Made by a program: the position numbers and the translations under genes. Below are positions 4,550 to 33,073 of a stretch of DNA of 34,354 bases, piece after piece. A model generated the notes under the pieces. The model saw only the letters and a program-made list of their open reading frames with translations, did not search any database and had not been told where the DNA came from. Position 1 is the stretch's first letter. Each line of letters begins with the position of its first letter. Source of the stretch: Desulfobacteraceae bacterium (GTDB lineage: Bacteria; Desulfobacterota; Desulfobacteria; Desulfobacterales; Desulfosalsimonadaceae); the NCBI GenBank assembly GCA_014237465.1, contig JABZFM010000040.1, positions 1 to 34,354 of the forward strand, in the 5' to 3' direction.

Positions 4550-5401
4550 ATGGAAAATGAAAAACTCATCAATATGCTCAACAGGGATCTTGCGGATGAA
4601 CACGCCGCAATTATCCGTTATCTGATTCACAGCTATCTTGAAGGAGAAGACTCTCCCTTAGGTGCCGGCCTGCTGTCACGCGCCAGGGAAGAAATGTGGC
4701 ACATGCACTGGCTGGGAATGATCATCGGAAAGATGGACGGCGAACCGGATTTAATCCCGGCTCCCTACCCCTATGATCCGACAAACCGCAAAACCATATT
4801 CAAATCCTATGTGGCGTATGAAAAAAAATTAATTCCCCATTATATGAAGGAAGCGGATTTAATTGATGACCCGCATATTAAACGGGTGCTTCAGCGGGAA
4901 GCCTGGGAATCGGAAATGCATGCAAAAAAATTCCAGCGCACCCATGACAAACTGTCGCCGGAACAGGCCCAAAGCCTTCCGGGCGAAGAGAATGAGCTGC
5001 CGGAAATTTTTGTGGAAAAACTTCAGCAGGTTGTGGCAGTAAAGTATACCCAGATGCTTCAGGCCATCCGGGACGCGTGGGTTTTTCAGGGCAACGGACT
5101 TTCCGGCTGGCAGATTATTGATTTTTCATTCACCAAAATGAAACAGCTGGCCCATATGGCCGAAGAGGTTGCTGAAAACGGATTGGAACCTCGTTTAATA
5201 AAAGGCAATATATCCACCACTACTTCCATCGGGGTTGCTCTTAAAAACAGCCTGGAAAGTGTCCAGGCGACCCATGGTCTTCATGCAGATATGAAAAATG
5301 ATCCGGAAGCGCAGAAACATTCGGGTTTGATGACCAATCTGGACCTAACCCTCAAACAGGAAGCTTATGAAGCTGAAGAAATTGAGGACCGGCTTAAATA
5401 A
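4550..5401 (+). CDS. Ferritin-like diiron protein, two-domain
   Basis: A 283-residue protein from ATG 4550, chosen because AGGAG lies eight bases upstream; the frame stays open upstream to a TTG at 4505. The first half is a ferritin-like four-helix domain: DLADEHAAIIRY on helix 1, REEMWHMHW with the ExxH pair on helix 2, and QREAWESEMHAKKF further on. The second half shows a related helical pattern (QMLQAIRDAW and KQLAHMAEEVAENG) with fewer obvious iron ligands, suggesting a degenerate duplicate. Single bacterioferritin domains are about 160 residues, so the length fits two. Likely roles are iron or oxygen/peroxide handling in the cytoplasm; the exact activity is unknown. Confidence 0.8.
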   Translation: MENEKLINMLNRDLADEHAAIIRYLIHSYLEGEDSPLGAGLLSRAREEMWHMHWLGMIIGKMDGEPDLIPAPYPYDPTNRKTIFKSYVAYEKKLIPHYMKEADLIDDPHIKRVLQREAWESEMHAKKFQRTHDKLSPEQAQSLPGEENELPEIFVEKLQQVVAVKYTQMLQAIRDAWVFQGNGLSGWQIIDFSFTKMKQLAHMAEEVAENGLEPRLIKGNISTTTSIGVALKNSLESVQATHGLHADMKNDPEAQKHSGLMTNLDLTLKQEAYEAEEIEDRLK

Positions 5402-5409
5402 TCAACAAT

Positions 5410-5439
5410 GCGATTGCCGCTTTTTCCGGCGGCAATCGC
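5410..5439 (+). terminator. Strong hairpin after ferritin-like gene
   Basis: A perfect 11-bp stem (gcgattgccgc/gcggcaatcgc) with an eight-base loop, nine bases after the stop codon. There is no T-tract after it, so it may act as a transcript 3' stabiliser or need Rho. Confidence 0.6.
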
Positions 5440-5617
5440 AATCAAACTGTGATCCCTTCAGGTGAATCCTGTTTAACCCGCATTTCTCATGAAGAAAATT
5501 GAATAAACATAAAAAAATTATTATTTCAATTGATTAACTTTAAAAATAAGGCTTGTTTAAAACAACAGTCTGTTCAGGCATGTTAAAACAAACAAATTTA
5601 ATTTTCTTCACCTAAGG

Positions 5618-20216: not shown

Positions 20217-22409
20217 CTAAAACCCAAGTAATCGTCCCCCCTGAAAAACAATAAAAGACATTCCCCATGCCACGCCGGTGGTAAATGCAATATGAAATAG
20301 CGTCCACTTCATCGAACCGGTTTCACGGGTAATGGCGCCGATGGTTGCCAGGCAGGGAACATACAGAAGGACAAAAATCATCATTGAGAGTGCGGACAGG
20401 GGTGTCATCCCGGATTTTAAAAGCGCATTTCGTAAGGCATCGGATTCCGAATCTCCTTCTGAATCTCCTTCCGCGGCATACAGAACGCCCATGGTACTGA
20501 TTACGATTTCCTTTGCCACAAAACCGGTCAGCAAAGCGACACTGCCCCGCCAATCAATTCCGATGGGTTGAAAAAACGGTTCAATCACTTTACCGATCCG
20601 GCCAATATAGGATTTTTCTGCCCTTTCCGCTTCCTTTGCAGAGGCAATTTCCTTAATCAATGCCTCTTTTTTCAATCGGCGCCATGCTTCATCAATTGAT
20701 TCACCTGAGCTGATTTTCTTCTCATAGGCTTGATTCACCTGGGCAATCTGTGCATCATAATCTTTGGAATATTGAATATTTTGAGGAAAACTAGACAAAA
20801 CCCATATCACAATAGAACCGGCCAGTATGATGCCGCCCATTTTTTTTAAAAACATTTTGCTGCGGTCCCACATATGAATCAAAAGATTTTTCATCATAGG
20901 AACCCGGTAGGGAGGGAGTTCCATCACAAACGGCGCATCTTCACCTCTCAGCAACGCAGTTCGGAACAGCCGGCCGGTGATGATTGCCACAAGAATACCG
21001 AATAAATAGATAATAAAAATAACCGTACCGGCATGGGCAGCGAAAAAGGTGCCGGCCAGGGCAATGTACACCGGAAGCTTTGCCGAGCAGGACATAAACG
21101 GCGTAATCAGAATGGTTAAAATGCGATCTTTTCTGCTCTCTAAAGACCGGGTCGCTATAATCGCCGGCACATTACACCCGAACCCCATCAACATAGGAAT
21201 AAACGATTTACCATGCAACCCGATCAGATGCATGATCCTGTCCATCAGGAAAGCTGCCCGGGCCATATATCCGGTATCTTCAAACAGTGCGATACAGAAA
21301 AACAACAGTAAAATATTCGGCAGAAAGATAATAATGCTCCCGACACCCGCGATGATGCCATCCACAATCAGATCTTTCAACAGGCTGTCCGGCAGAACAT
21401 ATTCAAAAAAAACAGAGGCATATCCTACCCCTGCATCAATCCATTCCATGGGGTAGGCACCCAGGCTAAACGTTACCTGAAACATTGCCCAGATAAAGAA
21501 GATAAAAATCGGGAAGCCCAGAAACCGGTTGGTCAGAACCAGATCAATATTGCGGGAAATGTCCACCCGCTGGCGGGTAGAAATGGACAACACTTCCTTG
21601 ATGATACCGGCAATAAACCCGTACCGCTCATCGGTCATCACAATTTCAGGATCATCGTCAAAACGCCCGGACAATTTCCCCCGCAATTCTTCAGCTTTTA
21701 TCAGAATATTCCGGCTTTCCGCCCCGATTTTCTCGCGGATTCTGTCTTTAATAATTTTATCGTCTTCGAGCAGTTTGACGGCTGTCCACCGGAGATTGTA
21801 TGGAAAGGATAAGTCCACCCGGGGTTTAATAAAATTCCTTAATTCCAGAATCGCGGATTCTATATCATTGCTGTAACGGACCTTTCGTTCTTCGGGAATT
21901 TCAAGGGGTGATTCGGCAAGTGCTATCGCGGCTTTCAGCAGGTCATCCAATCCTTCATTTTTGTTCCCCACCGTAAAAACCACCGGCACGCCGAGAAGTT
22001 CGGACAATTTTGCAGCGTCAATTCTAAACCCGCGCGATTTGGCGACATCCGCCATATTCAAGGCAAATATCACCTTGCAGTCCAGCTCCCGGAGTTGATT
22101 GGCCAGGTACAAATTGCGTTCCAGATTTGACGCATCAATGATATCAATGACCACATCCGGATTTTCATCTAAAATAAAATCCCTGGCCACAATTTCTTCA
22201 ATGGAAAAAGGCGTCAGGCTGTAAGTACCGGGCAGATCAATAATTTTCATATCATACCCGAACTGATGGATATCCCCCTCTTTTTTCTCAACCGTTACAC
22301 CGGGCCAATTTCCAACTTTCTGCCGGGTTCCGGTCAGATTATTGAAAATGGTTGTTTTTCCGGAATTCGGATTTCCCGCAAGGGCGATTCTCAACTGACG
22401 TTTTTCCAT
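20217..22409 (-). CDS. feoB: Ferrous iron transporter FeoB
   Basis: Inner-membrane Fe(II) importer with a cytosolic G domain. The 730-residue protein has G1 GNPNSGKT at 12-19, G3 DLPG at 58-61 and the FeoB-type G4 NMAD at 118-121. A helical spacer domain and a membrane part with about eight to ten segments follow. The transport domain contains GFGCNVPAIIATRSLE and SCSAKLPVYIAL, the two Cys-containing gate motifs. It is the last gene of the feo block, 150 bases after feoA, and converges on clpB with a plain AT-rich gap. Confidence 0.96.
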   Translation of the reverse strand: MEKRQLRIALAGNPNSGKTTIFNNLTGTRQKVGNWPGVTVEKKEGDIHQFGYDMKIIDLPGTYSLTPFSIEEIVARDFILDENPDVVIDIIDASNLERNLYLANQLRELDCKVIFALNMADVAKSRGFRIDAAKLSELLGVPVVFTVGNKNEGLDDLLKAAIALAESPLEIPEERKVRYSNDIESAILELRNFIKPRVDLSFPYNLRWTAVKLLEDDKIIKDRIREKIGAESRNILIKAEELRGKLSGRFDDDPEIVMTDERYGFIAGIIKEVLSISTRQRVDISRNIDLVLTNRFLGFPIFIFFIWAMFQVTFSLGAYPMEWIDAGVGYASVFFEYVLPDSLLKDLIVDGIIAGVGSIIIFLPNILLLFFCIALFEDTGYMARAAFLMDRIMHLIGLHGKSFIPMLMGFGCNVPAIIATRSLESRKDRILTILITPFMSCSAKLPVYIALAGTFFAAHAGTVIFIIYLFGILVAIITGRLFRTALLRGEDAPFVMELPPYRVPMMKNLLIHMWDRSKMFLKKMGGIILAGSIVIWVLSSFPQNIQYSKDYDAQIAQVNQAYEKKISSGESIDEAWRRLKKEALIKEIASAKEAERAEKSYIGRIGKVIEPFFQPIGIDWRGSVALLTGFVAKEIVISTMGVLYAAEGDSEGDSESDALRNALLKSGMTPLSALSMMIFVLLYVPCLATIGAITRETGSMKWTLFHIAFTTGVAWGMSFIVFQGGRLLGF

Positions 22410-22437
22410 TAATTTGCCTGGTTTATTTTTGCAGGTT

Positions 22438-22562
22438 ATTGAAAAACGTCATGAGCGAAGGCCAGGCAAGGCAAAATTCGGCGAAATAGCGGAGTTTATG
22501 TCTATAAATGAGCATTTTGAGCCGAATTTTAACGCCGTATGGCCAAGCGCAATAGTTTTTCA
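22438..22562. repeat. Palindromic element between feoA and feoB
   Basis: The left arm begins attgaaaaacgtcatgagcg and pairs imperfectly with a right arm ending gcgcaatagtttttca; inner arms aaaattcggc/gccgaatttt pair perfectly. The element's right end includes the feoA stop codon (22560-22562). It separates two genes usually very close together, so it may modulate the FeoA:FeoB ratio by mRNA structure. Confidence 0.65.
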
Positions 22563-22784
22563 TAGTGCCTCAACATCTATTTCAGCAGCTTCCTTTACCC
22601 TTAATGACACATGGCATCCCCTTACAACCAGCTCCAGGGGATCTTTTAACGGGGCATATTTTTCAACATATATCTCGGAGCCTTTAGTCAGTCCCATTTC
22701 AAGTATTCGCCGCCTCAGCCTGGTTTCACCGCCGATCCGTAAAATTCGGCCCTGCTGGCCTTCCCGCATCTCACTCAACCGCAT
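22560..22784 (-). CDS. feoA: Ferrous iron transport protein FeoA
   Basis: A 74-residue SH3-like cytosolic accessory of FeoB. Its sequence has the family layout GQQGRILRIGG, then LRRRILEMGLTKGSEIYVE and the final VKEAAEIDVE. An AAGGGA ribosome-binding site lies about nine bases before ATG 22784. It lies between the Fur-FeoA fusion and feoB on the same strand. Confidence 0.93.
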   Translation of the reverse strand: MRLSEMREGQQGRILRIGGETRLRRRILEMGLTKGSEIYVEKYAPLKDPLELVVRGCHVSLRVKEAAEIDVEAL

Positions 22785-22864
22785 GTATATATTCCCTTAC
22801 CTGTCATAAAAACAGGATTCAATTAACAACTCATTTTATATCTTCAACGATAATTTGAAAAAAA

Positions 22865-22884
22865 ATAATAATTCGTAATTATCA
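22865..22884. promoter_or_regulatory. Candidate Fur-type operator before feoA
   Basis: The AT-rich 130-bp gap between the fur-like gene and feoA contains ATAAT/ATTAT inverted arms around a five-base centre within ataataattcgtaattatca. This is loosely like a Fur box (GATAAT repeats) and suits the context, but AT-rich DNA yields such matches by chance. Confidence 0.3.
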
Positions 22885-22914
22885 ATTGTTAATAATTAAT
22901 AATTAATTGAAAAT

Positions 22915-23595
22915 TTATGCTTCCTTCTGTCCCACAATCACTTTCTGGGACATGCCCCGTCCCAGCACATAGCGCTGGAAATCAACCGCTATCACCAGTT
23001 GCCCATGACCATTGTTGGTAATCACCTCAAGCTCATCACCAATTCTCAGGCCCATGCTTAAAAGACGCAAACGGGCTTTATTCCCGCCGATAAGGTCCTT
23101 GATAACCACCCGTTCTCCCTGCTTTGCGGCCAGAAGCGGCATCTGCTGTTCACGGGATTTTAAGCAATCCGAGCAAATCCCGTAAATCTCCATTCGATGC
23201 TGAAGCATATGAAAACCAAATCCCGAAACCACCTGAGTTTGAAGCTGTTCGAGCTGGTCGTTTTTAAATTCAATAATTTTCCCGCATTTGGTACAGATCA
23301 TGTGGTCATGATGCTGTCCCAGATGCCGATGTTCATAGTGAACAATGCCGTTATCAAACCGGTTTTTTTGCGCAAATCCGAATCGGCACATGAGTTCAAG
23401 GGTCTCTTCAATAAACTCTTTGGGCAATTCAATTTTTTTATCTTTTAAAATTGAAAATAATGCCTTCACCGTAACATGCTGCTCGGTCTGCAGAAAAACT
23501 TCCAGCACCTTGAAGCGGTCTTCAAAACGATCGATTTTCTCCTGCTTGAAAAGTTTTTCAAACTGCTGGCGCTCGTGTGAATGGATCTCTTTCAT
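22915..23595 (-). CDS. Fur-family regulator fused to a FeoA domain
   Basis: A 226-residue protein with a Fur-type winged helix and dimerisation domain (about 1-148) and a FeoA-like SH3 domain (about 155-224). The Fur part shows HHDHMICTKCGKIIEF with CxxC at 101-104 and a second CxxC at 141-144, a structural zinc site. The tail, ERVVIKDLIGGNKARLRLLS and MGLRIGDELEVI, matches FeoA. Fur represses iron-uptake genes when loaded with Fe(II). The fusion at the head of a feoA-feoB block suggests a local iron sensor for this transporter. The order Fur then FeoA is intact, with no frameshift. FeoA domains also form the C-terminus of DtxR regulators, a parallel arrangement. Confidence 0.9.
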   Translation of the reverse strand: MKEIHSHERQQFEKLFKQEKIDRFEDRFKVLEVFLQTEQHVTVKALFSILKDKKIELPKEFIEETLELMCRFGFAQKNRFDNGIVHYEHRHLGQHHDHMICTKCGKIIEFKNDQLEQLQTQVVSGFGFHMLQHRMEIYGICSDCLKSREQQMPLLAAKQGERVVIKDLIGGNKARLRLLSMGLRIGDELEVITNNGHGQLVIAVDFQRYVLGRGMSQKVIVGQKEA

Positions 23596-23892: not shown

Positions 23893-24360
23893 CTAACGGG
23901 CAAATTGTTTTCTTAATGCGCGAAACCGCAAACGAAAGACCATAATTAATTGTAGCAGAATCATGGCAGAATGGAATATCTGGCCGGATACTGACTCTAA
24001 ATTTATCATAAAAAAATTTGATCGGGATTTATTCAGTTTTTCGATTTTATATACTTTGCCCATAATTCTATCGGCTGTAACGCCAACATCCGGAATCAGT
24101 AGGCTGTCACCTTTTGTCCGGTAAACAGTGTGACCGACATAGCACTCTTTTTTAATCAGTCGATGAAGAATTAATGATCCGGAATAATTTTTAATTAACA
24201 ACAGATCACCGATTCTTATCTTTTCGACGGGAACTTTTTTGACTGTTACCACATCATCTGTGTTTATAACCGGCCGCATGCTCCGACCGGTTACTTTAAT
24301 CCGCAACTCAACACCCTGGTTCAAAATTTCTTCACATAGCCCGGAAATTTCAGTAGCCAT
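23893..24360 (-). CDS. S26 signal-peptidase-like protease of RiPP cluster
   Basis: Predicted Ser/Lys membrane peptidase of the S26 (LexA-fold) group. Start ATG 24360 gives 155 residues; the longer frame from 24465 would overlap the kinase gene by 68 bases. The catalytic-Ser motif is in VTGRSMRPVI, box-C-like GDLLLIKNYSGSLILHRLI follows, and YRTKGDSLLIPD carries the putative catalytic Lys or the TKGD/SxxD region. A hydrophobic C-terminal segment (FHSAMILLQLIMVF) would anchor it. Small S26 proteins of this kind often sit beside PqqD-like, radical SAM and HPr-kinase-like genes. Removing the leader of the upstream peptide is a reasonable but unproven role. The ribosome-binding site (AAGGA) is unusually far away. 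Confidence 0.78.
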   Translation of the reverse strand: MATEISGLCEEILNQGVELRIKVTGRSMRPVINTDDVVTVKKVPVEKIRIGDLLLIKNYSGSLILHRLIKKECYVGHTVYRTKGDSLLIPDVGVTADRIMGKVYKIEKLNKSRSNFFMINLESVSGQIFHSAMILLQLIMVFRLRFRALRKQFAR

Positions 24361-24397
24361 GAATACGGATGCGTCCTTCTTAAAATCTGCGGTTCCA

Positions 24398-25321
24398 TTA
24401 AAGGGCACTGATAAACTCCTTAAAAACAGTTGAAATATTTTTGCCCGGCTCAAAGCTGAGTTCATAAACAGGAATCTGATCTACTAATGCTTCGCAAAAA
24501 ATTAAATAATTTGATACAAGTTCAGGCTCATACCAGGGTATCGACAACACTGGCATTAATTTTTCAAAAGCATCCTGCCGATTCAGCGGCCTGATACGAT
24601 CCTCTTTGCTCTTATTAATGAAAAAAATCCCGCTGACAGGCAACCCAATATTTTCAGTGTATCCGTTTTCCCCGGGCCACGGCGTTCCGTATGCCATATA
24701 GTGATCTTTGTCCTTACGGATTAAAAGCCGATCATCATTAATCAATCTGAAATCTTTATCCATGTCGAATTGCCGGCACAATGTACTTTTACCTGCACCA
24801 GACTGCCCTGGAAATAAAAAGGCCCGATTATCCATGTAAATACCGCCGGCATGAAGCAGGCCGCTCTGTTTATTCGCGAGATAAAGCATTAAAAGAATCT
24901 GATCGATGGGATATTGAACCGGATTCTGAAAAACACCGTCATTATAACCTTTTATCTGCATATCTTTACTGCAATAAATCACGATATGATCAAAATCTTT
25001 ATTCACCCGTGCCATTCGAAACGGCTCATCCAAAGCAGGCATATGCAAGGATATTATAAAACCATCATTCTTATATATACTAATCGGTTCGGACTCGAAG
25101 ATTTTATCACAGGCGTTTGTTTCAGGCATATCATTTAAATCGAGTGTCACTTCAATATTTATCACGGCTTTATAATTTCTGCTTTTCTGTATAAAACGCT
25201 TATAAACAGCATCCGGTTCCGCAATAGTAATGGAACCCGGATAGGTGATATGAAACAAAATATCACCTATTTCAAAGAAAGCAGTTTTGCAGGCTGGATC
25301 TTTTATATTTTTAGATAGCAT
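24398..25321 (-). CDS. HPr-kinase-like P-loop protein of RiPP cluster
   Basis: A 307-residue protein with a C-terminal HprK-type kinase core. The Walker A GQSGAGKST is at 172-180, preceded by LLHAGGIYM and followed by INDDRLLIR (194-202), a Walker-B-like acidic pair. The N-terminal 140 residues lack the HprK DRTT-type domain and show no known motif. Homologues in lasso-peptide clusters phosphorylate the precursor's C-terminal serine, and many others of unknown role lie beside PqqD and S26 genes. The putative precursor here ends Gly-Ser, so it is a possible substrate. It lies between the maturase (54 bases away) and the S26 gene. Confidence 0.8.
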   Translation of the reverse strand: MLSKNIKDPACKTAFFEIGDILFHITYPGSITIAEPDAVYKRFIQKSRNYKAVINIEVTLDLNDMPETNACDKIFESEPISIYKNDGFIISLHMPALDEPFRMARVNKDFDHIVIYCSKDMQIKGYNDGVFQNPVQYPIDQILLMLYLANKQSGLLHAGGIYMDNRAFLFPGQSGAGKSTLCRQFDMDKDFRLINDDRLLIRKDKDHYMAYGTPWPGENGYTENIGLPVSGIFFINKSKEDRIRPLNRQDAFEKLMPVLSIPWYEPELVSNYLIFCEALVDQIPVYELSFEPGKNISTVFKEFISAL

Positions 25322-25375
25322 AAACGTTTATTATTCGCTGCTACAACTGTAATTTCAATCCCAATGAAAAATATT

Positions 25376-26473
25376 TTACAGCTTATTCTGTTTGTAATTA
25401 ATAATTTTTTCATACCGGTATTTTCCAATTTCGCATAAATAGCCGGCCCGTTGATTTGTAGAACCGTTTTCTAAAGCAAAAAACGCCGGACAGTATCCGC
25501 ACAAAGATCGTTTCTCGCACTGATTGCAAAACAGGATATCTCCACTGGCTTTTTCTTCACGGATTTTAGGCATTAAATCCTTCCAGCCTTTTATGAATCC
25601 GCCATCTTGTAAAATATTATACTTCATATGCGTTGAAATAAGACAGGGCTGAAGACTACCATACGCATCAATGTGAAAATTTGTAATACCGGCGCCACAC
25701 TGAAAAAGAGTATTGTCGGGTTTGATGTGTTTCATCCGCTGATAAAAATCAGTCCAGCTATGAATATGCTCTTCATCGGCCATTTCCACGTCCACCGCCT
25801 CCTTTGGGGAAACACGTAGGCTTAATGGGGCTTTGCTGCCGTCAATTCCACCAAATATGCATGCATCCGAGCGGAAGCCCACGTCATAGGATTTTGCCAT
25901 TTTTTTAATATCAAAAAATTCATGACGATTTGGTTTCATCAGGATCGTTTTGAGTTTTACCCGAATTTTACTGTTCAACAATTTATTTATATTGCTGATA
26001 CATTGATGATAAGCGACTTTGCTGCCTGTTATACGTTCATATGTTTCAGGCGTTGAGCCGTAGACGGTAATTTCTATGGTATATGGTGGGTATTTTTTAA
26101 AATGATTGACAATGTTATCTGAAATCAGGGTGCCATTGGTGAACAGGGTGATCAAAAGGCCTTTTTGTTTGGCGTAAGTATAAATTTCTAAAAAATCATT
26201 TCTTAAAAGAGGCTCGCCTCCGGTCATTAAAAGAAATAAACAACCGGATTCGGTGATTTCATCAAGTACCTGTTTCCATTGATTGGTATTGAGTTCCGCC
26301 TTGCTCTTCCTTGCATCTTTACCTGATCGTCCAAAATAGCAATGAATACATTTTAGATTACATGACCGGGTGAGTTCAATACTTCCTGAAACAGGCACAT
26401 GCTGCTGCATCAACTTCTTATTCAAAAGACGCGAATACTCTGAACTATGATATATTTCTGATGCACATTCCAT
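25376..26473 (-). CDS. Radical SAM/SPASM peptide maturase
   Basis: A 365-residue radical SAM enzyme. CxxxCxxC (C38, C42, C45 in SCNLKCIHC) binds the SAM-cleaving 4Fe-4S cluster, and MTGGEPLLR (83-91) is the SAM-binding GGE motif. The C-terminal SPASM domain supplies C259, C277, C316, C319, C325, C328 and C347, enough for two auxiliary clusters. Such enzymes make C-C, C-S or C-O cross-links in ribosomal peptides, as in PqqE and sactipeptide or ranthipeptide synthases. The start lies six bases after the PqqD gene, so translation is coupled. The reaction type cannot be read from sequence. Confidence 0.92.
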   Translation of the reverse strand: MECASEIYHSSEYSRLLNKKLMQQHVPVSGSIELTRSCNLKCIHCYFGRSGKDARKSKAELNTNQWKQVLDEITESGCLFLLMTGGEPLLRNDFLEIYTYAKQKGLLITLFTNGTLISDNIVNHFKKYPPYTIEITVYGSTPETYERITGSKVAYHQCISNINKLLNSKIRVKLKTILMKPNRHEFFDIKKMAKSYDVGFRSDACIFGGIDGSKAPLSLRVSPKEAVDVEMADEEHIHSWTDFYQRMKHIKPDNTLFQCGAGITNFHIDAYGSLQPCLISTHMKYNILQDGGFIKGWKDLMPKIREEKASGDILFCNQCEKRSLCGYCPAFFALENGSTNQRAGYLCEIGKYRYEKIINYKQNKL

Positions 26474-26479
26474 GCATGT

Positions 26480-26755
26480 TTACATAATTAATTGGGCGAT
26501 TTTGAGTTTATCGATAAAATCAACCAGGTCATTTTCTGCCTGATCCTGATCGATTTCAAAATTGTTCAATATACCATTGTATATACCATTCACCGGTGTC
26601 TGACCATCCAATCTTTCCCAAATAAATTCAGCCACTGGGTTTAAAGCAAAAATCCGCTGCATATCCGCAAGGTTTCCTGATATTGGTACTAAAATCGTCT
26701 CACCCACAACTTTACGAACAACAATTCCTTCAACTTTTTGAAATACTTTATCCAT
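26480..26755 (-). CDS. PqqD-like RiPP recognition protein
   Basis: A 91-residue protein from ATG 26755; a GTG four codons upstream (26767) is an alternative start. It has the PqqD fold pattern: ILVPISGNLADMQRIFALNP, then VAEFIWERLDGQTPV and a final helical part ending FIDKLKIAQLI. PqqD proteins bind the leader peptide and present it to the maturase. Its place between the peptide gene (45 bases before) and the radical SAM gene (six bases after) fits this role. No pqqA, pqqB or pqqC is nearby, so PQQ synthesis is unlikely. Confidence 0.88.
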   Translation of the reverse strand: MDKVFQKVEGIVVRKVVGETILVPISGNLADMQRIFALNPVAEFIWERLDGQTPVNGIYNGILNNFEIDQDQAENDLVDFIDKLKIAQLIM

Positions 26756-26800
26756 ATATTCTTGCACGATGAACTCACAATATATTAAAGAAAAAGAGGT

Positions 26801-26986
26801 TTATGAGCCATAAGTTACACAATTATTAACAATTCCACAATTTGTACTTTGGGCAACATTGATTCCGCTATCGAACATTTTACATCCAATCGCAAGAACT
26901 TCTTCGGCAGCAAGTTCAATTACTCTCAATATCGGCTTTTCATACTTTTTTTTATCCGTTGGCAATGTTTTCGTTTTATCTTCCAT
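26801..26986 (-). CDS. Putative RiPP precursor peptide
   Basis: A 61-residue peptide from ATG 26986 (a TTG four codons upstream is less likely). The first ~34 residues form a charged leader with KKYEKPILRVIELAAEEVLA; the tail from C35 onward has 27 residues, three Cys (35, 50, 56), several Gly, Asn and Thr, and ends YGS. The KP-hydrophobic-ELxAEEVLxxGCK layout is one I associate with radical-SAM precursor leaders, but I cannot name a family. There is no signal peptide. The ribosome-binding site is weak. It is first in the tight run precursor, PqqD, maturase, kinase, S26 peptidase. The likely cut is just before or after G34. Confidence 0.8.
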   Translation of the reverse strand: MEDKTKTLPTDKKKYEKPILRVIELAAEEVLAIGCKMFDSGINVAQSTNCGIVNNCVTYGS

Positions 26987-27124
26987 GATAACCCGCAATA
27001 CTTTTTTTATTAAATTTTTATTGTTTATCTATCTCAATTGCCCGGGCTACGCGATTCAAGCCGTAACAAAGCAGACGCGAAAAAGGACAAGCAATATACG
27101 TCAGTTCAGAGTTGACGAGACACT

Positions 27125-27153
27125 ATTATATATTCAACAATGTTCTCACTTAA
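27125..27153 (-). promoter_or_regulatory. Candidate promoter for the precursor operon
   Basis: TATAAT on the minus strand (27125-27130) with a weak -35, TTAAGT (27148-27153), spaced 17 bases. It would give a 5' leader of about 130 bases in the 291-bp gap after the C25 gene. An 8-bp inverted repeat, tgttctca (27141-27148) and tgagaaca (27233-27240), lies nearby and could be an operator half-site pair. Confidence 0.3.
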
Positions 27154-27277
27154 AATGTAGAAAACAACCACTTATCAAATATAACGGCAACTTCTCAATA
27201 AATCCAGAGAAAATATCACAATATGAACTTTTTGAGAACATACATGTAACGATATCAATATGTTCCAAAACAAACGG

Positions 27278-30200
27278 TTACCTGACAACCAGCGCAGGAT
27301 CACCCAGCAAGTTATATATATTGAGCATATATAACTTATCACCACGAACGCTGTAACCGTCTAAAGCCTGAACCACAGCCTTTCCAATCGTATTTGTCCC
27401 GTTATCATCAAATATAGCCTGGTAAAATTCTTCCCCAAGAATCAAAGCCTGGGAATCTTCGGACAGTCCTGCAGCGGCCCAAACAGCTGCGGCCCCGCCG
27501 TTTTCTTTCAGGACCAAAACTTCACTCAATGAATCAAACCCCGAAACTCCGAATCGACCCACAATGCATGAAAGGGCTGTCATCACAAACGGGGCCTGAT
27601 TGTTGGTCAATGCCGACGCATCGGAAGTCATCAACATACCGCTTGAAGACAGTCGGTCCAATCCCCCGTGGCCCACGTAATTAATAATAGCCAATTCTGC
27701 GTTTATGGCGGACATTACCTTTGTCCGAGCCTCAGAGATCGAATTCTCAGACAGATAAATTTTCTGCAACACATAATCCGATGGAAACAGTTCGGCTAAA
27801 CGATTACTTTGCGTCGGGAACGGGTCATCCGTTTTTGAATAATCCGCCAGCATCAAGGCCCGTTTTTTCCAACTCCCTTCTGTTTCAAACGAAATGACCT
27901 TGTCAATATACGCATCCATCTCTTTTGATGTTAATGCCGGAATCCTTCCGACGGCCATTTCCGGCACCCCATCATTCCCGGCCACATCTACAAACAGATT
28001 ATCCAGAGCAAACAGTCCGTCCGGCGTATTTCCCATCAGCGGGGGCATCAGACAATCCCCCTGGCCCTGGTTATTCTTATAATCATAAGAACCGGACCCG
28101 GCCAAAACCACGTATACCGGCGGCTGTTGCCAGTTGTGAAAAGCGTGTGCCAAAAAGTCCCTGATGGCATGGGGCGAAAAGATACCATAGTTAAATTGAT
28201 CCATAATATCTTCCAGTTGAACCACCATCGTGCTGAGGCCTTTTCGGGAACGATAATCGGCCAAACGTTGAGCCGCGTTTTGAAGCTCTATAGGAGTAAT
28301 CACCAGATAGTCCGCTCTGTTATAAGGCGACTTGAGGTCGGCAGCACTGTTATCCGCGTAAAATTCTTTTACCCTGTCCACTGCATCCAGGGAAACAATA
28401 AAATATGAACGATCCGGTGAAGTCGGTGTTATATCTGCCTGAAAGCTGCCATCCAGAGACTGATATGACCGGGTTGATATAAAAATTAGTGTTGTCGGAT
28501 CGGTAACATCAAATACGAATATATCCGGAGAACTGAAACCTGCAACGGTAAACACTGAATTACCGTCTGCCTGGCAAAACAGCTTATTCTCATCAGCACG
28601 ATAAAAACTTTGGTATGTGAGTGAAATGGAATCAATGTAGAAAATACTGTAAGCGGCGCCTGTATCCAGAATTCCCGTCACTTCAACAGTATTCTCACCA
28701 TTATTTAAGATAGAGGACGCAAAAGAAAGGATTACTTCCGCTTCCTCAGTCCCATCCCAATATCCTTCGCCGACCCATGTACCGTTAACCCGGATCTCAA
28801 CATGATGGTCCGGAGCCACGTTGGTATCTGTACCACCGATTAAATTAACGGCCAGAACAGCTGAATCCGCCCGTACGTCCACGCCCGGGCTGGGAACTGA
28901 AAACGTCCTTGAAGTCAAACCGGGATATCCGCTGAGAATCCAGTCCCAGAGCCACATATCGGCTTCCGGGTCATCAAAAAGAGCAGATGCCGGGTACCCA
29001 TCCACTTCCTTTTGGATTGTCCGCGTAAATGTTTCATATCCACTGGACTGTGAGGCCGGGCGGTATCTAATACTTTCCATCGTCGACCCGTTATTAATCT
29101 GTCCAATCCAGTAGATGTTATCATTGGTATAAATACTATCCGGCGCTTCACCATAAAAATAAATTCCTGCATTACTTTCGTCCGGAAGATATGCAATCTC
29201 ATTGTCCCGATGAAACATTGACAGATTTCGGGTTTTAATCAACCGGGATGCTGTTTTTGCGGAAATTCCCAGCATGGATGCGATTTCATCATCACTCACG
29301 TAATAAATTCCATCAGCAGCAATAACCAGTTTTCCCCAGTCATTCGTCCGATTCTTTTTCAATAATTTGGCCTCACGCTTGGCCGCCTTGGCGCTTTCAT
29401 TTCTGAGCTGTCTATCCGCGGAAACCGGGTTTGGCTGTGCATAATAATAGGACACCGGGGTATCCAGAGAATAGGCATTGCCCGCTTCTCCAATCGTGAC
29501 GGTAAACGGGCCATACGTATAATTATCGCCTTTGTTATCCAGCTCCACGAGTTTATAAGTGTATGTTTTACCGGCTATCGCTGTTTTATCCACATACCGG
29601 TATGTCCCGCCCTGCTGGGCGTGCGGCAGACTTGGCAGAAGTTCTTCATTGATCAGCCTGTAACTGCCGTTTTCTCCGTTTTGCCGATACAGATAGAATC
29701 CCACAGTCCCGATTTCTGAAACAGTCTGCCATTCGACAATGGCGGTGCCGGCGTCTTCAAATGCGTTAAATTCGGAAATAACGGCGACGGTTATGATAAT
29801 AGAAATATCCAGCGAACTGGATCCGTAAGTCCAGTCGGCAGGCTTATCCGTATCCACCCCGTCACTTATTCGATAAATCGCTTCCCCTTCATCAATCATT
29901 CCGATAGTAATGTCATCCACATCCCGGTAACTGTTGTCCGGCCACATATCTGAGGCAACCGCAAAAGAATCATCACTGTTAAAATCAAGCGTATTATCAG
30001 GCGTGGTACTCCATGAGACAAAATCCACCGCCTGGCTGGATGCGTCATAAAGCATAATCTGATCACCACCGTCAAAGGGATTGAACACAATACCGGTCTG
30101 TGACGATGACAATGTTTCGGTTAAGGTAATTTGTGTTTCACTGTCCACACTGGATACCGTATAGGTCCCGGCATCCGGGCCGGTGGCAATCACGAACGGA

Positions 30201-33073
30201 TCACCCGGCTGGACACCATCGGTAGAAAATGTTGAAGACGCGGATGTTACCACAGCAGACCCATATGTCACCAGGTCATCGGCCTCAGCCGGGTCTCCGA
30301 GCTCATCCGGTCCGGTGGCAGGGTATCCGGTAACTGTAGCATAAAAATAATATATCCCGTTCGTACTGTCATAATCAGGCGCCGGTGTGCCATCCGGCAC
30401 CAACACGATATATAATTTTTCTCCCGGCGCCAAGCCGACATCACTGCCGCCAAAAGTGGGGATCGTATAAGAAAAGCCGTCACTATCAGTAACACTGTAG
30501 CCGGTAACATTGACCGATGAATTGCTCGAATTGTAAAGCTGAATGTACTCCCGTTGAGTGGTGGTGCCACCGGGTATGGCCACATCCGGATCCGGATAAA
30601 ACAGCACTTCATTGATCACAATGGGCGGGGCATTATAAATCGCGTCATCCGTCTTAATATCATTGGTAGTTATGGTATCACCATCATCACAGTCATCATA
30701 GGATACGGTCAGACCATCCTCGTGTAAGGCCTCAAGATCTTTATCATTGGCTGTATAGCTGCTGTCATAGGTGCTGCTGACCAGCGGAACCGCGTTAAAC
30801 CCGATATCGTTCCGACTGTCAGAGAGGTTTTCCGTCAATGTGATCTGGGTTTCGCTGTCCACACTTGAAACCGTGTACATTCCCACATCCGGTCCGGTGG
30901 CAATGGCAAAAACATCTCCGGCGGTGACACCATCGGTAGCGAATGTTGATGAAGCGGAAGTTACGACTGCAGATCCGGCAGTGGTCACCAGGTCATTGAT
31001 GCGGTTCATGAAAACACCGGAACCTGAAAACGTTTCATACAGGGTGATGACCTCTGAATCACCCGTGTCGGAAGTAACTGTTACCTGAACTGTTTCAACA
31101 CCACCAATGGTTATGGTACATAGACCTGAAACGGCATTTTCATCCACGACTTTAATCCATACCGGCTGGTCTGCAGCATACAGCTCAACACCATATGTTC
31201 CCGCGCCATTGGTAAAATAAACCCGCCCGCCGCCGTCAGTAAAAAACAGTGTCGCGGTGGTTGAATAATCGATCGTATTATAAGTGAACATGGCGGTTAC
31301 ATCCGCCAGATCGACATCCTCCCAGACGTCATCCTCGGTGGTTTCCGTGCCGTCGGTAACCGCCGTGGTCAGGCCGGTGGTATTTATAAAAATGCCGGTA
31401 TCCGGACCGGTTTCCGTGAGGGTCAGTGTCTGCCCGTCGCGGCCGCTTAAAGTTACCGTGATGGTTTCCGCAACAAGAAAATTCGTATTTGAATCATCAT
31501 GATAAACCGTTACATACAGATCATCTTTCCCGAGTCCATAGCTGTCAGCAGGCGTAGTTTCGGAACGTGTGAACTGAATAAACGGTTCACCAGGCCCAAT
31601 GATTACGGCGGTGTCATCCAATGTCTTTCCCTTGGGATTGGTATCGGAATATGTAATGACATCTCCTGAAAATACCTGAAAATCACCGTCATCATCAGCT
31701 CCGGAAGCACTGGAAGAAGTCAGCTGATCACCCGCATAGGAATTGAAGGTAATGGTGTCACCGGTTGTGGGACCTTTTTTGCTCTCATAAAGGGTAAAAG
31801 AAATGGATCCGTCATCCGAGGTAAACAGACTGTCGGCCGTGGCTGTGGCTGTTTGGGTTCCGGAAACACTTCCTGCCACATCCCATGACGTACCGTTGTA
31901 TGTGAGTGTCCAGGACTCATTCTCGCTGATAACCGTTGTCTCAACATAGGGGATCCAGCCATCCGTCGGATTACTTGAAACCGGTTTACTGGCCCCACCC
32001 CGGTTACTGAAAATACCTGTATTGGGGCCGGTTTCCGTCAGGGTAACCGTCTCATCATCACCGGTAGCCGGATTGGTCACAGTCGCTGTCACGGTTTGCA
32101 CGGCGTCCGGATCTGAATTGGCAATATTATCCTTCAAATACAGATAAATATCATCTCCCACAGTATAAAAATCCGCCTCGGAAAGATCTTCATACGCAAA
32201 ATTCAGTATTGGGTCGCCGTTTGGCTCGACGAGATCGCCGAAAGTGATCGGGTCATTCAAGGTTAAAAAATCCAGATCCGCCATAAAGTCTTTTTGCAAT
32301 GGATCTGTGTTGGACGCACTGGTGGAAAATATAAACCCCACCGGTGAATCCGGAAACAACACCTGGTTCCCCAGAAGATCCTTAAAAGCGGTGATCGGAA
32401 CCTGCATATCAAGAAAATAATCCCCCGATGTGTCGACGGCTGCCCGAACCCGGGTATGAGACGTTGAAACGGTGCCGTCATTATTTGCTTCAAACTGTGC
32501 CACTCTTGCGGCTATGGGATCATCAATTTCCTGTGTATTTTCATTGTTGTAAAGAAGCCTTAGTTCATCGTAACTGTTCGCCGTATACCCGCCAAAAAGA
32601 TCCAGCCAGTATTCCTTGTATCCGTCTCCGTCGATATCAATAAGCACATTCCAGTGATATTGGGTAAAACCATCGGCTTTACTAGGATCCGCCACCAGGC
32701 GCATAACAAATACGATATAATCGTCTTCCATGGTGGAAGGATCTTCCGGATCATAATCTGTGCCGCCGTTGTAATAGCCGAAAGACGGCGTATCATATGG
32801 TCCCGGATCTGTATCATTGGGTGACCCGGACGCCAAATCGATCGAATCAGGCTCTACCGCTGCCCCGCCATTTGTCGGGTCGGATGAACCTTCATGGTCG
32901 CTGATCGGCTGCCCGTTAAATGTATAGGGCACTGTATACCCAGTGGGAGGATTAAACAGGTCCCAGTCAATGCGTATATCTGAAAAAGCTGCCAGAACAT
33001 GCGCCGGTAACAACACTGTCCAGCAAAATATTGTTATCAATCCGAGTATAATCGATCTGAATCTATTTCCCAT
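27278..33073 (-). CDS. Secreted C25 (gingipain-type) cysteine peptidase, multidomain
   Basis: A 1931-residue exported protein. A Sec signal peptide covers about 1-28 (ending LPAHVLAA). Asp-rich, beta-rich repeat regions with recurring TLTETGPxTGIF follow; one 60-residue unit (GSAVVTSASSTF to TLTE) appears twice. A lamin-tail domain lies near 815-1015 (IVINEVLFYPD to LDFNSD), then a fibronectin-like part near 1097-1200. The C25 peptidase domain spans about 1585-1931: catalytic His1802 in INYVGHGG and Cys1836 in TALSC, ending LLGDPALVV. Gingipains cut after Arg or Lys. No type IX C-terminal sorting domain follows, so the route beyond the periplasm is unclear. AAGGAG precedes the ATG. It is first on the strand carrying the RiPP genes; whether it belongs to them is inference. 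Confidence 0.88.
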   Translation of the reverse strand: MGNRFRSIILGLITIFCWTVLLPAHVLAAFSDIRIDWDLFNPPTGYTVPYTFNGQPISDHEGSSDPTNGGAAVEPDSIDLASGSPNDTDPGPYDTPSFGYYNGGTDYDPEDPSTMEDDYIVFVMRLVADPSKADGFTQYHWNVLIDIDGDGYKEYWLDLFGGYTANSYDELRLLYNNENTQEIDDPIAARVAQFEANNDGTVSTSHTRVRAAVDTSGDYFLDMQVPITAFKDLLGNQVLFPDSPVGFIFSTSASNTDPLQKDFMADLDFLTLNDPITFGDLVEPNGDPILNFAYEDLSEADFYTVGDDIYLYLKDNIANSDPDAVQTVTATVTNPATGDDETVTLTETGPNTGIFSNRGGASKPVSSNPTDGWIPYVETTVISENESWTLTYNGTSWDVAGSVSGTQTATATADSLFTSDDGSISFTLYESKKGPTTGDTITFNSYAGDQLTSSSASGADDDGDFQVFSGDVITYSDTNPKGKTLDDTAVIIGPGEPFIQFTRSETTPADSYGLGKDDLYVTVYHDDSNTNFLVAETITVTLSGRDGQTLTLTETGPDTGIFINTTGLTTAVTDGTETTEDDVWEDVDLADVTAMFTYNTIDYSTTATLFFTDGGGRVYFTNGAGTYGVELYAADQPVWIKVVDENAVSGLCTITIGGVETVQVTVTSDTGDSEVITLYETFSGSGVFMNRINDLVTTAGSAVVTSASSTFATDGVTAGDVFAIATGPDVGMYTVSSVDSETQITLTENLSDSRNDIGFNAVPLVSSTYDSSYTANDKDLEALHEDGLTVSYDDCDDGDTITTNDIKTDDAIYNAPPIVINEVLFYPDPDVAIPGGTTTQREYIQLYNSSNSSVNVTGYSVTDSDGFSYTIPTFGGSDVGLAPGEKLYIVLVPDGTPAPDYDSTNGIYYFYATVTGYPATGPDELGDPAEADDLVTYGSAVVTSASSTFSTDGVQPGDPFVIATGPDAGTYTVSSVDSETQITLTETLSSSQTGIVFNPFDGGDQIMLYDASSQAVDFVSWSTTPDNTLDFNSDDSFAVASDMWPDNSYRDVDDITIGMIDEGEAIYRISDGVDTDKPADWTYGSSSLDISIIITVAVISEFNAFEDAGTAIVEWQTVSEIGTVGFYLYRQNGENGSYRLINEELLPSLPHAQQGGTYRYVDKTAIAGKTYTYKLVELDNKGDNYTYGPFTVTIGEAGNAYSLDTPVSYYYAQPNPVSADRQLRNESAKAAKREAKLLKKNRTNDWGKLVIAADGIYYVSDDEIASMLGISAKTASRLIKTRNLSMFHRDNEIAYLPDESNAGIYFYGEAPDSIYTNDNIYWIGQINNGSTMESIRYRPASQSSGYETFTRTIQKEVDGYPASALFDDPEADMWLWDWILSGYPGLTSRTFSVPSPGVDVRADSAVLAVNLIGGTDTNVAPDHHVEIRVNGTWVGEGYWDGTEEAEVILSFASSILNNGENTVEVTGILDTGAAYSIFYIDSISLTYQSFYRADENKLFCQADGNSVFTVAGFSSPDIFVFDVTDPTTLIFISTRSYQSLDGSFQADITPTSPDRSYFIVSLDAVDRVKEFYADNSAADLKSPYNRADYLVITPIELQNAAQRLADYRSRKGLSTMVVQLEDIMDQFNYGIFSPHAIRDFLAHAFHNWQQPPVYVVLAGSGSYDYKNNQGQGDCLMPPLMGNTPDGLFALDNLFVDVAGNDGVPEMAVGRIPALTSKEMDAYIDKVISFETEGSWKKRALMLADYSKTDDPFPTQSNRLAELFPSDYVLQKIYLSENSISEARTKVMSAINAELAIINYVGHGGLDRLSSSGMLMTSDASALTNNQAPFVMTALSCIVGRFGVSGFDSLSEVLVLKENGGAAAVWAAAGLSEDSQALILGEEFYQAIFDDNGTNTIGKAVVQALDGYSVRGDKLYMLNIYNLLGDPALVVR

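Follow-up and report, generated by a model that had tools for sequence, protein, structure and literature searches.

The window analysed here is the whole stretch of 34,354 nucleotides that forms contig JABZFM010000040.1, one whole contig of the 5.09-Mb genome of a Desulfobacteraceae bacterium (assembly GCA_014237465.1). It carries a cassette of six minus-strand genes (positions 23893-33073) for a C25 peptidase, a small cysteine-containing peptide, a PqqD-type protein, a radical SAM/SPASM-type maturase, an HprK-like kinase and an S26 peptidase. The first-pass annotation of this DNA had proposed a system for a ribosomally synthesized and post-translationally modified peptide (RiPP). The recurrence of the conserved peptide with PqqD and the maturase across many loci upholds that proposal to the extent that a real, RiPP-type gene set is supported. 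We consider it fairly probable that the set makes a ribosomal peptide that is cross-linked, phosphorylated at its terminus, trimmed by the S26 peptidase and tied to the C25 peptidase. Judged from its sequence, the cassette is a radical-SAM relative of the linear polyphosphorylated peptide (LPP) and paeninodin-type systems that belongs to neither group.

The genome-neighbourhood comparison, for which the kinase and the maturase served as queries, showed that the cassette recurs with the peptide. The kinase search gave matches in 23 of 60 genomes, including the window's own, and 19 stretches were taken, one of which is a second cassette of the window's genome. The maturase, PqqD and the peptide were present in all of the 13 closest loci (L034-L046), and C25 and S26 were each present in 11 of them. 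No peptide of the window's family was found by profile in the five weaker loci of this search (L047-L051). A maturase scan of named public genomes yielded 79 loci among the best 80 matches. The peptide was found in 24 of the 26 close, non-duplicate loci, with one of the two misses at a contig edge; the count is 28 of 30 if the duplicates L122-L124 and L127 are retained. Homologous loci without the peptide, which the first-pass annotation had named as evidence against its proposal, were thus the exception among the close relatives, and the proposal is not refuted on this count.

Within the order, 34 of 389 genomes had a match to the peptide profile; within the phylum, the figure was 8 of 395. 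Both counts include the window's genome. According to their titles, the peptide-bearing records belong to Planctomycetota, Nitrospirae, Desulfobacterales and their kin, Omnitrophota, Cloacimonadales, Aerophobetes, Aminicenantes, Acidobacteria, Verrucomicrobia, Myxococcales, Chloroflexi and Elusimicrobia. Ten of these title groups have at least one locus with the peptide, PqqD, the kinase and S26 together. The Planctomycetota locus gave no S26, and in Cloacimonadales the contig stops before any kinase.

The order and strand of the six genes and the tight spacing of the PqqD and maturase genes, as first read from the sequence, were confirmed (Table 1); the gap between these two genes measures 6 bases. 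The peptide gene of the window sits between those for C25 and PqqD, its ATG lying 291 bases past the C25 stop and its end 33 bases ahead of the PqqD start. The commonest order in the other loci is C25, PqqD, maturase, peptide, kinase and S26.

Table 1. Genes and predicted features of the cassette (positions in the window).
Feature	Positions	Strand	Remarks
C25 peptidase gene	27278-33073	minus	1931 aa
C25 domain	27287-28309	minus	at the very C-terminus of the 1931-aa protein
Precursor peptide gene	26801-26986	minus	ATG start at 26986, 61 aa
YEKPIL, leader residues 15-20	26927-26944	minus	YxxPx[L/I/V]-type motif for binding the RiPP recognition element, from sequence; binding predicted
Predicted core, residues 33-61	26804-26890	minus	putative, if the S26 enzyme cuts after V-L-A32
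Terminal Ser61 codon	26804-26806	minus	predicted phosphorylation site
PqqD-type RiPP recognition element gene	26480-26767	minus	GTG start, discrete, 95 aa
Radical SAM/SPASM-type maturase gene	25376-26473	minus	365 aa
HprK-like peptide kinase gene	24398-25321	minus	307 aa
Archaeal/SipW-type S26 peptidase gene	23893-24360	minus	155 aa; 190 aa if translation starts at the upstream ATG, 24465

The peptide matched no NCBIfam family, and Pfam gave only two chance-level entries (E 0.18-0.2). The possibility of a chance open reading frame (ORF) was rejected because clear homologues sit in the equivalent cassette of many other genomes. Its layout consists of a leader with Y15-x-x-P18, followed by C35-K36, C50, C56 and the C-terminal G60-S61. 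Tyr15, Pro18, Leu25, Leu31, Cys35, Cys50 and Ser61 are invariant across 14 aligned precursors. In the clade of the window's maturase, 31 peptides are listed, one of them cut off by a contig end. The first cysteine is at position 21 counted from the tyrosine in 29 of the 31 peptides. The last cysteine is followed by exactly five residues in 23 of the 30 complete peptides, and 22 of these 23 end in C-x3-G-S. Among the 26 complete peptides that have exactly three cysteines beyond the tyrosine, the Cys2-Cys3 spacing is 4-6 residues and the Cys1-Cys2 spacing is 11-19 residues; the latter stretch varies in sequence as well as in length. Two different candidate precursors were seen in each of the loci L134, L166, L173 and L196.

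Two features of the peptide bear on its predicted processing. Groups A and B, in which these features were counted, are score bands of one maturase profile. The residue following V-L (or I-L, M-L) is Ala, Gly, Ser or Thr in 37 of 42 group A peptides (Gln, Met or Ile in the remainder) and is less restricted in group B. The restriction at this position fits a signal-peptidase-like cut, without proving it. A terminal Ser was counted in 40 of 42 complete group A peptides, among them those of the window and of L120 (39 of 41 without L120, whose peptide escaped the profile and was recovered by pattern); the background of Ser at positions -15 to -2 is 7.6%. All of the 13 closest loci of the kinase search have peptides with a terminal Ser. 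In group B, it is present in 11 of 15 peptides, and the exceptions are four from Chloroflexi.

The PqqD protein scores 57.7 bits against the Pfam PqqD model (cut-off 23.4), and the maturase scores 75.6 bits against Radical_SAM (cut-off 29.5). The Pfam SPASM model gave no match to the maturase. However, the radical SAM/SPASM feature set is present in the cassette maturases: the CxxxCxxC motif and seven further cysteines (residues 38, 42, 45, 259, 277, 316, 319, 325, 328 and 347 in all) are invariant in 21 sequences, as is Cys78. We take the spacing of the seven further cysteines to be that of SPASM domains. The best solved relatives are SkfB (E 3e-29), a sactionine-forming enzyme, and then PqqE. 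The mycofactocin model gives the maturase 116.6 bits, far under its cut-off of 265, and the 25 best of 84 NCBIfam matches include no sactipeptide or ranthipeptide maturase model that reaches its cut-off.

The kinase scores 15.3 bits against Hpr_kinase_C (Pfam, cut-off 33.3) and 34.2 bits against ScmC (NCBIfam, cut-off 125). ScmC and the HprK-related kinases A and B are its best family matches, HPr(Ser) kinase being weaker, and its profile weakly matches HprK chains among solved structures (E 0.002). Because of these low scores, the label HprK-like rests on the conserved residues together with the weak HprK profile matches. The residues in question are His157, the P-loop GQSGAGKST with Lys178, Asp196-Asp197 and GTPW (212-215). 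All 23 aligned sequences have the His and the Lys, and 22 have the first Asp; Glu stands in place of the second Asp in four. These residues match the His-Lys-Asp-Asp motif that is shared by lasso-peptide kinases (PMC10368454). The kinases PadeK, ThcoK and SyanK phosphorylate the C-terminal Ser of lasso peptides (PMC9266682).

The S26 protein scores 53.7 bits against TIGR02228, the archaeal-type signal peptidase I, just above the cut-off of 51.85, and 21.6 bits against Pfam Peptidase_S24, just short of 23.3. Its best solved relatives are SEC11C and SEC11A. Ser27, His66 and Asp85 are invariant in 19 of 19 sequences in each of two overlapping alignments. Their order is the same as in LppS, the leader peptidase of LPPs, in which the Ser-His-Asp triad has been tested by mutation (PMC13381572). 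The S26 protein is therefore predicted to be the leader peptidase of the cassette.

From homology, residue conservation and the published relatives, we infer the following course for the cross-linking of the peptide through thioethers, its phosphorylation and cleavage, and the part played by C25. The PqqD protein would bind the leader at YxxPx(I/L) and present the peptide to the enzymes. The maturase would then join at least one of the three cysteines in the core to other residues; as the enzyme family suggests, the links would most likely be thioethers. The kinase may phosphorylate the conserved C-terminal Ser, as PadeK does in paeninodin, and the S26 peptidase may cut the leader after V-L-(A/G/S), in the manner of LppS on the LPP leader, with the help of the PqqD protein. 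In the least certain step, the finished peptide would be exported and would work outside the cell with C25, as its substrate or partner.

The C25 protein matches Pfam Peptidase_C25 with 263.7 bits (cut-off 23) and has additional Lamin Tail Domain (LTD) matches. It consists of a hydrophobic N-terminal stretch (Kyte-Doolittle value 2.17), two LTD stretches and the C-terminal C25 domain, and it is predicted to be a secreted protein of the gingipain/PorU type. Its active-site residues are His1802 and Cys1836. In the alignment rows that cover these sites, the window included, neither residue varies (31 of 31 rows for the His, 32 of 32 for the Cys); a narrow regular expression had matched 17 of 33 and was superseded by the alignment.

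The linkage of C25 to the cassette supports a functional tie. Of 40 peptide-positive genomes other than the window's, 34 were searched; 23 of their 47 C25 genes lie within 10 kb of a cassette, in 22 genomes, and 0.24 would be expected if the genes were evenly placed. In 25 close loci, PqqD is preceded on its strand by C25, at a distance of 5-326 bp in 22 of them. The window's genome has four C25 genes, two of which adjoin PqqD/radical SAM/HprK cassettes. A quick maturase tree of 59 rows (58 close loci and the window) falls into two halves. The half with the window has C25 in 26 of 31 rows and an ABC exporter in none of the 31, and the other half has C25 in 6 and an ABC exporter in 7 of 28 rows. 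Given the well supported branches, C25 must have changed at least four times; therefore, the link was made or lost several times. No row of the 59 has both C25 and an exporter (Fisher p 0.003). However, we do not claim that the two substitute for each other; the independent-pairs test had too few informative pairs on the tree, and the exclusion may therefore be a mere difference between two clades. C25 was also considered as the leader peptidase, and this is unlikely because cassettes with the conserved peptide exist without C25 nearby.

No match to an ABC exporter, NTP_transf_5 or a lasso cyclase was found in a Pfam scan of the 27 window ORFs; one of these is an ABC1 atypical kinase, a family distinct from ABC transporters. 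The statement in the first-pass annotation that the window has no ABC transporter thus holds for the scanned ORFs. As an argument against a secreted product, it is weaker than had been assumed, because sister loci carry an ABC exporter: 7 of 58 close loci and 22 of 61 more distant ones, according to a model built from one sequence.

The closest described system is that of the LPPs, published in 2026 for the lpp cluster of Paenibacillus alginolyticus (PMC13381572). Both have a discrete RiPP recognition element (RRE), which in the window is the PqqD protein above its Pfam cut-off, an archaeal/SipW-type peptidase with Ser-His-Asp and a YxxPx leader motif. The motif [Y/W]xxPx[L/V/I/F/A], reported for the leaders of lasso RREs, resembles the LPP leader motif (PMC13381572). 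The window's counterpart of the LPP HprK-like kinase has the catalytic residues but scores under all curated cut-offs. LPP clusters also have an NTP transferase and an MsbA-like exporter, neither of which is among the window ORFs scanned; an NTP transferase, an ABC exporter and polysaccharide genes recur in loci related to the window's, and an NTP_transf_5 gene is present in the second cassette of the window's genome.

The differences are considerable. The LPP leader reads YxxPxVLxHQxIxFETxxS, whereas that of the window has only the YxxPx part. LPPs are linear and have no primary cross-linking enzyme, whereas the window has a radical SAM/SPASM-type maturase; the term radical SAM does not occur in the main text of the LPP paper (PMC13381572). 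The LPP kinase acts on Ser3 of the core, whereas the site predicted here is the terminal Ser. LPPs are said to be restricted to Bacillota, but window-type cassettes occur outside this phylum. A Cys core and C25 are not among the LPP core genes and features described (PMC13381572).

The paeninodin-type systems (PadeK, PsmK/PsmN) share a C-terminal Ser, a kinase with His-Lys-Asp-Asp, a [Y/W]xxP-type leader, a discrete RRE and, in some relatives, a nucleotidyltransferase (PMC9266682, PMC10368454); the phosphorylation itself is predicted in the case of the cassette. However, the Pfam scan of the 27 ORFs gave no match to their macrolactam cyclase or cysteine leader peptidase B2, and the window has instead a radical SAM enzyme and a predicted leader peptidase of another family. 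The sactipeptide and ranthipeptide systems (SkfB, AlbA, PapB) share a SPASM-type maturase and a Cys-containing core, to which the cassette adds the kinase, S26 and C25. The C25 protein resembles the PorU/gingipain type in its C25 domain with His and Cys. However, it scores 223.6 bits against NF033707, the model of the type IX secretion system sortase PorU (cut-off 420), and differs from that type in that the C25 domain ends the protein.

SynChlorMet (Scm; TIGR04248-TIGR04251) combines PqqD-like, HprK-like (ScmC) and SPASM proteins. Within NCBIfam, the window's kinase matches ScmC best and its PqqD protein matches ScmD best. However, the cassette falls short of the cut-offs for ScmC (see above), ScmD (39.8 of 100) and ScmE (98.8 of 400), and the NCBIfam names list two maturases (ScmE and ScmF), whereas the cassette has one. 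Membership in the SynChlorMet, LPP, lasso or PorU families was rejected on these feature and cut-off tests.

The first-pass annotation had called the system undescribed, and this is only partly true, because the chassis of an RRE, an HprK-like kinase and a SipW-like peptidase has been published for the LPPs and NCBIfam holds the distantly related SynChlorMet cassette. Judged by our literature searches, novelty lies in the maturase, the Cys core, the linked C25 peptidase and the occurrence outside Bacillota. No paper on radical SAM cross-linking combined with terminal-Ser phosphorylation in one ribosomal peptide was recognised among those listed in these searches, outside which most subscription journals lie. 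A term search gave no mention of kinases in PMC12710340 and PMC8326336.

Loci with several maturases were also observed (L151, L153, L156, L158-L164, L166, L168, L173, L177, L180, L194 and L196), mostly with PqqD and S26. A candidate peptide was found in all but L160, mostly with a W-x-x-P-type leader, and some of the matches are weak. These peptides are candidate precursors for SynChlorMet-like loci. L158 belongs to a named complete genome, that of Desulfosediminicola flagellatus.

Several observations weigh against the reading of a cross-linked, terminally phosphorylated peptide tied to C25. The kinase lies below all curated cut-offs, and in the search of solved structures five distinct sequences that matched over little more than the P-loop outscored HprK. 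The L102 kinase is degenerate (EE for DD), yet its peptide ends in Ser. Conversely, seven kinase-bearing loci lack a Ser-ending peptide: that of L101 ends in Ile, those of L130 and L172 end in Thr, and L140, L144, L148 and L149 are from Chloroflexi. Of 11 multi-maturase loci with a peptide in which no kinase was found, 10 have peptides ending in Ser and L158 has one ending in Cys; a terminal Ser thus occurs in these loci without a link to a kinase nearby. Owing to such counter-examples, we do not take the terminal Ser as proof of phosphorylation. In the three Verrucomicrobia peptides, the core contains only two cysteines, and the spacing in L044 is off. C25 was not seen in 5 of the 31 rows of the window's maturase clade, although L091 and L100 of these are on short contigs and L046 has a C25 gene about 13 kb away. 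The group A counts are partly circular, because many of these loci were found via the peptide profile and the profiles were partly trained on loci that were later counted. In addition, most of the records are metagenome-assembled genomes, and single taxon assignments may therefore be wrong.

The alternative that survives best is that the cassette belongs to the LPP group, with phosphorylation as the main modification, a maturase that does non-thioether chemistry (a carbon-carbon link or epimerisation) and C25 as a neighbour with a separate task. The RRE, the HprK-like kinase and the SipW-like peptidase are indeed as in LPP, and the two other LPP core genes, for NTP_transf_5 and the ABC exporter, recur beside related loci. 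Moreover, L103, L104, L107 and L110 have the peptide, PqqD and the kinase, whereas a maturase was not found close by; L107 and L110 have NTP_transf_5 as well. These may be LPP-like systems of the window's order that only phosphorylate their peptide, although in L104 and L107 a contig end lies too near the start of the locus for the absence to be judged. However, the three core cysteines are conserved together with the maturase in most close loci, the nearest solved relative of the maturase is SkfB, and the LPP leader motif HQxIxFET is not present in window-type peptides. We consider this alternative unlikely.

It is also conceivable, though distinctly improbable in our view, that C25 is the main product and that the small peptide regulates or decorates this surface peptidase, either as a regulator or by covalent attachment. 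The linkage far above chance would be explained, as would its occurrence in seven phylum-level groups with differing orders (C25 before PqqD; after the kinase in Chloroflexi) and the second C25 gene that adjoins the second PqqD/radical SAM/HprK cassette of the window's genome. However, 20 of the 59 tree rows have neither C25 nor an ABC exporter in the stretch covered, 7 have an exporter, and a contact between the peptide and C25 is hypothetical. A more specific role, that of a sortase-like, PorU-like transpeptidase that attaches the peptide, once cross-linked and phosphorylated at its terminus, to a protein or polysaccharide of the surface, is very speculative. If it were true, the cassette would be a radical-SAM surface-tagging system found across many phyla and not one for a secreted antibiotic.

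A pathway for a peptide-derived redox cofactor such as pyrroloquinoline quinone (PQQ) or mycofactocin would account for the fact that no exporter is among the 27 window ORFs scanned and would fit PqqD with a SPASM-type enzyme, the single peptide found in the window and the sub-cut-off mycofactocin score of the maturase; however, it is highly improbable, because the Cys1-Cys2 stretch of the core varies in length and sequence, and some loci have two precursors. To our knowledge, a peptide kinase has no place in the PQQ and mycofactocin pathways.

Further observations concern the surroundings of the cassettes. The second cassette of the window's genome, L033 (G000:C51:32001-52000), has a different small peptide, a PqqD domain fused to radical SAM/SPASM, an HprK-like kinase, a separate C25 propeptide gene, a C25 peptidase, S26, PqqD, a SPASM-only protein and NTP_transf_5. 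In L051, a small protein with repeated Cys- and Gly-Ser-containing units (5324-5593) is encoded between the kinase and radical SAM/PqqD genes and is a candidate multi-core precursor. Genes that group with a chain-length determinant (Wzz) recur near the cassettes in 18 loci and genes that group with a polysaccharide export protein in 11, one representative of each having been identified; these loci include L091, L096, L109, L112, L116, L120, L128 and L130. LPP loci have been reported near capsular polysaccharide loci (PMC13381572). In the window, a Fur-FeoA fusion, FeoA and FeoB come after the cassette (20217-23595). L034, L037 and L039 likewise have a relative of the fusion downstream (82-89% identity), together with FeoA and/or FeoB. 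This neighbourhood may reflect plain local synteny or a link to iron.

If the reading of a cross-linked, terminally phosphorylated peptide is true, radical SAM cross-linking and phosphorylation of the C-terminal Ser would be joined in one ribosomal peptide. The chassis of an RRE, an HprK-like kinase and a SipW-like peptidase, said to be confined to Bacillota in the LPP work (PMC13381572), extends to ten other phylum-level groups, as judged by record titles. The analysis also provides candidate precursors for the related multi-maturase loci and a testable partner for the C25 peptidases of these bacteria.

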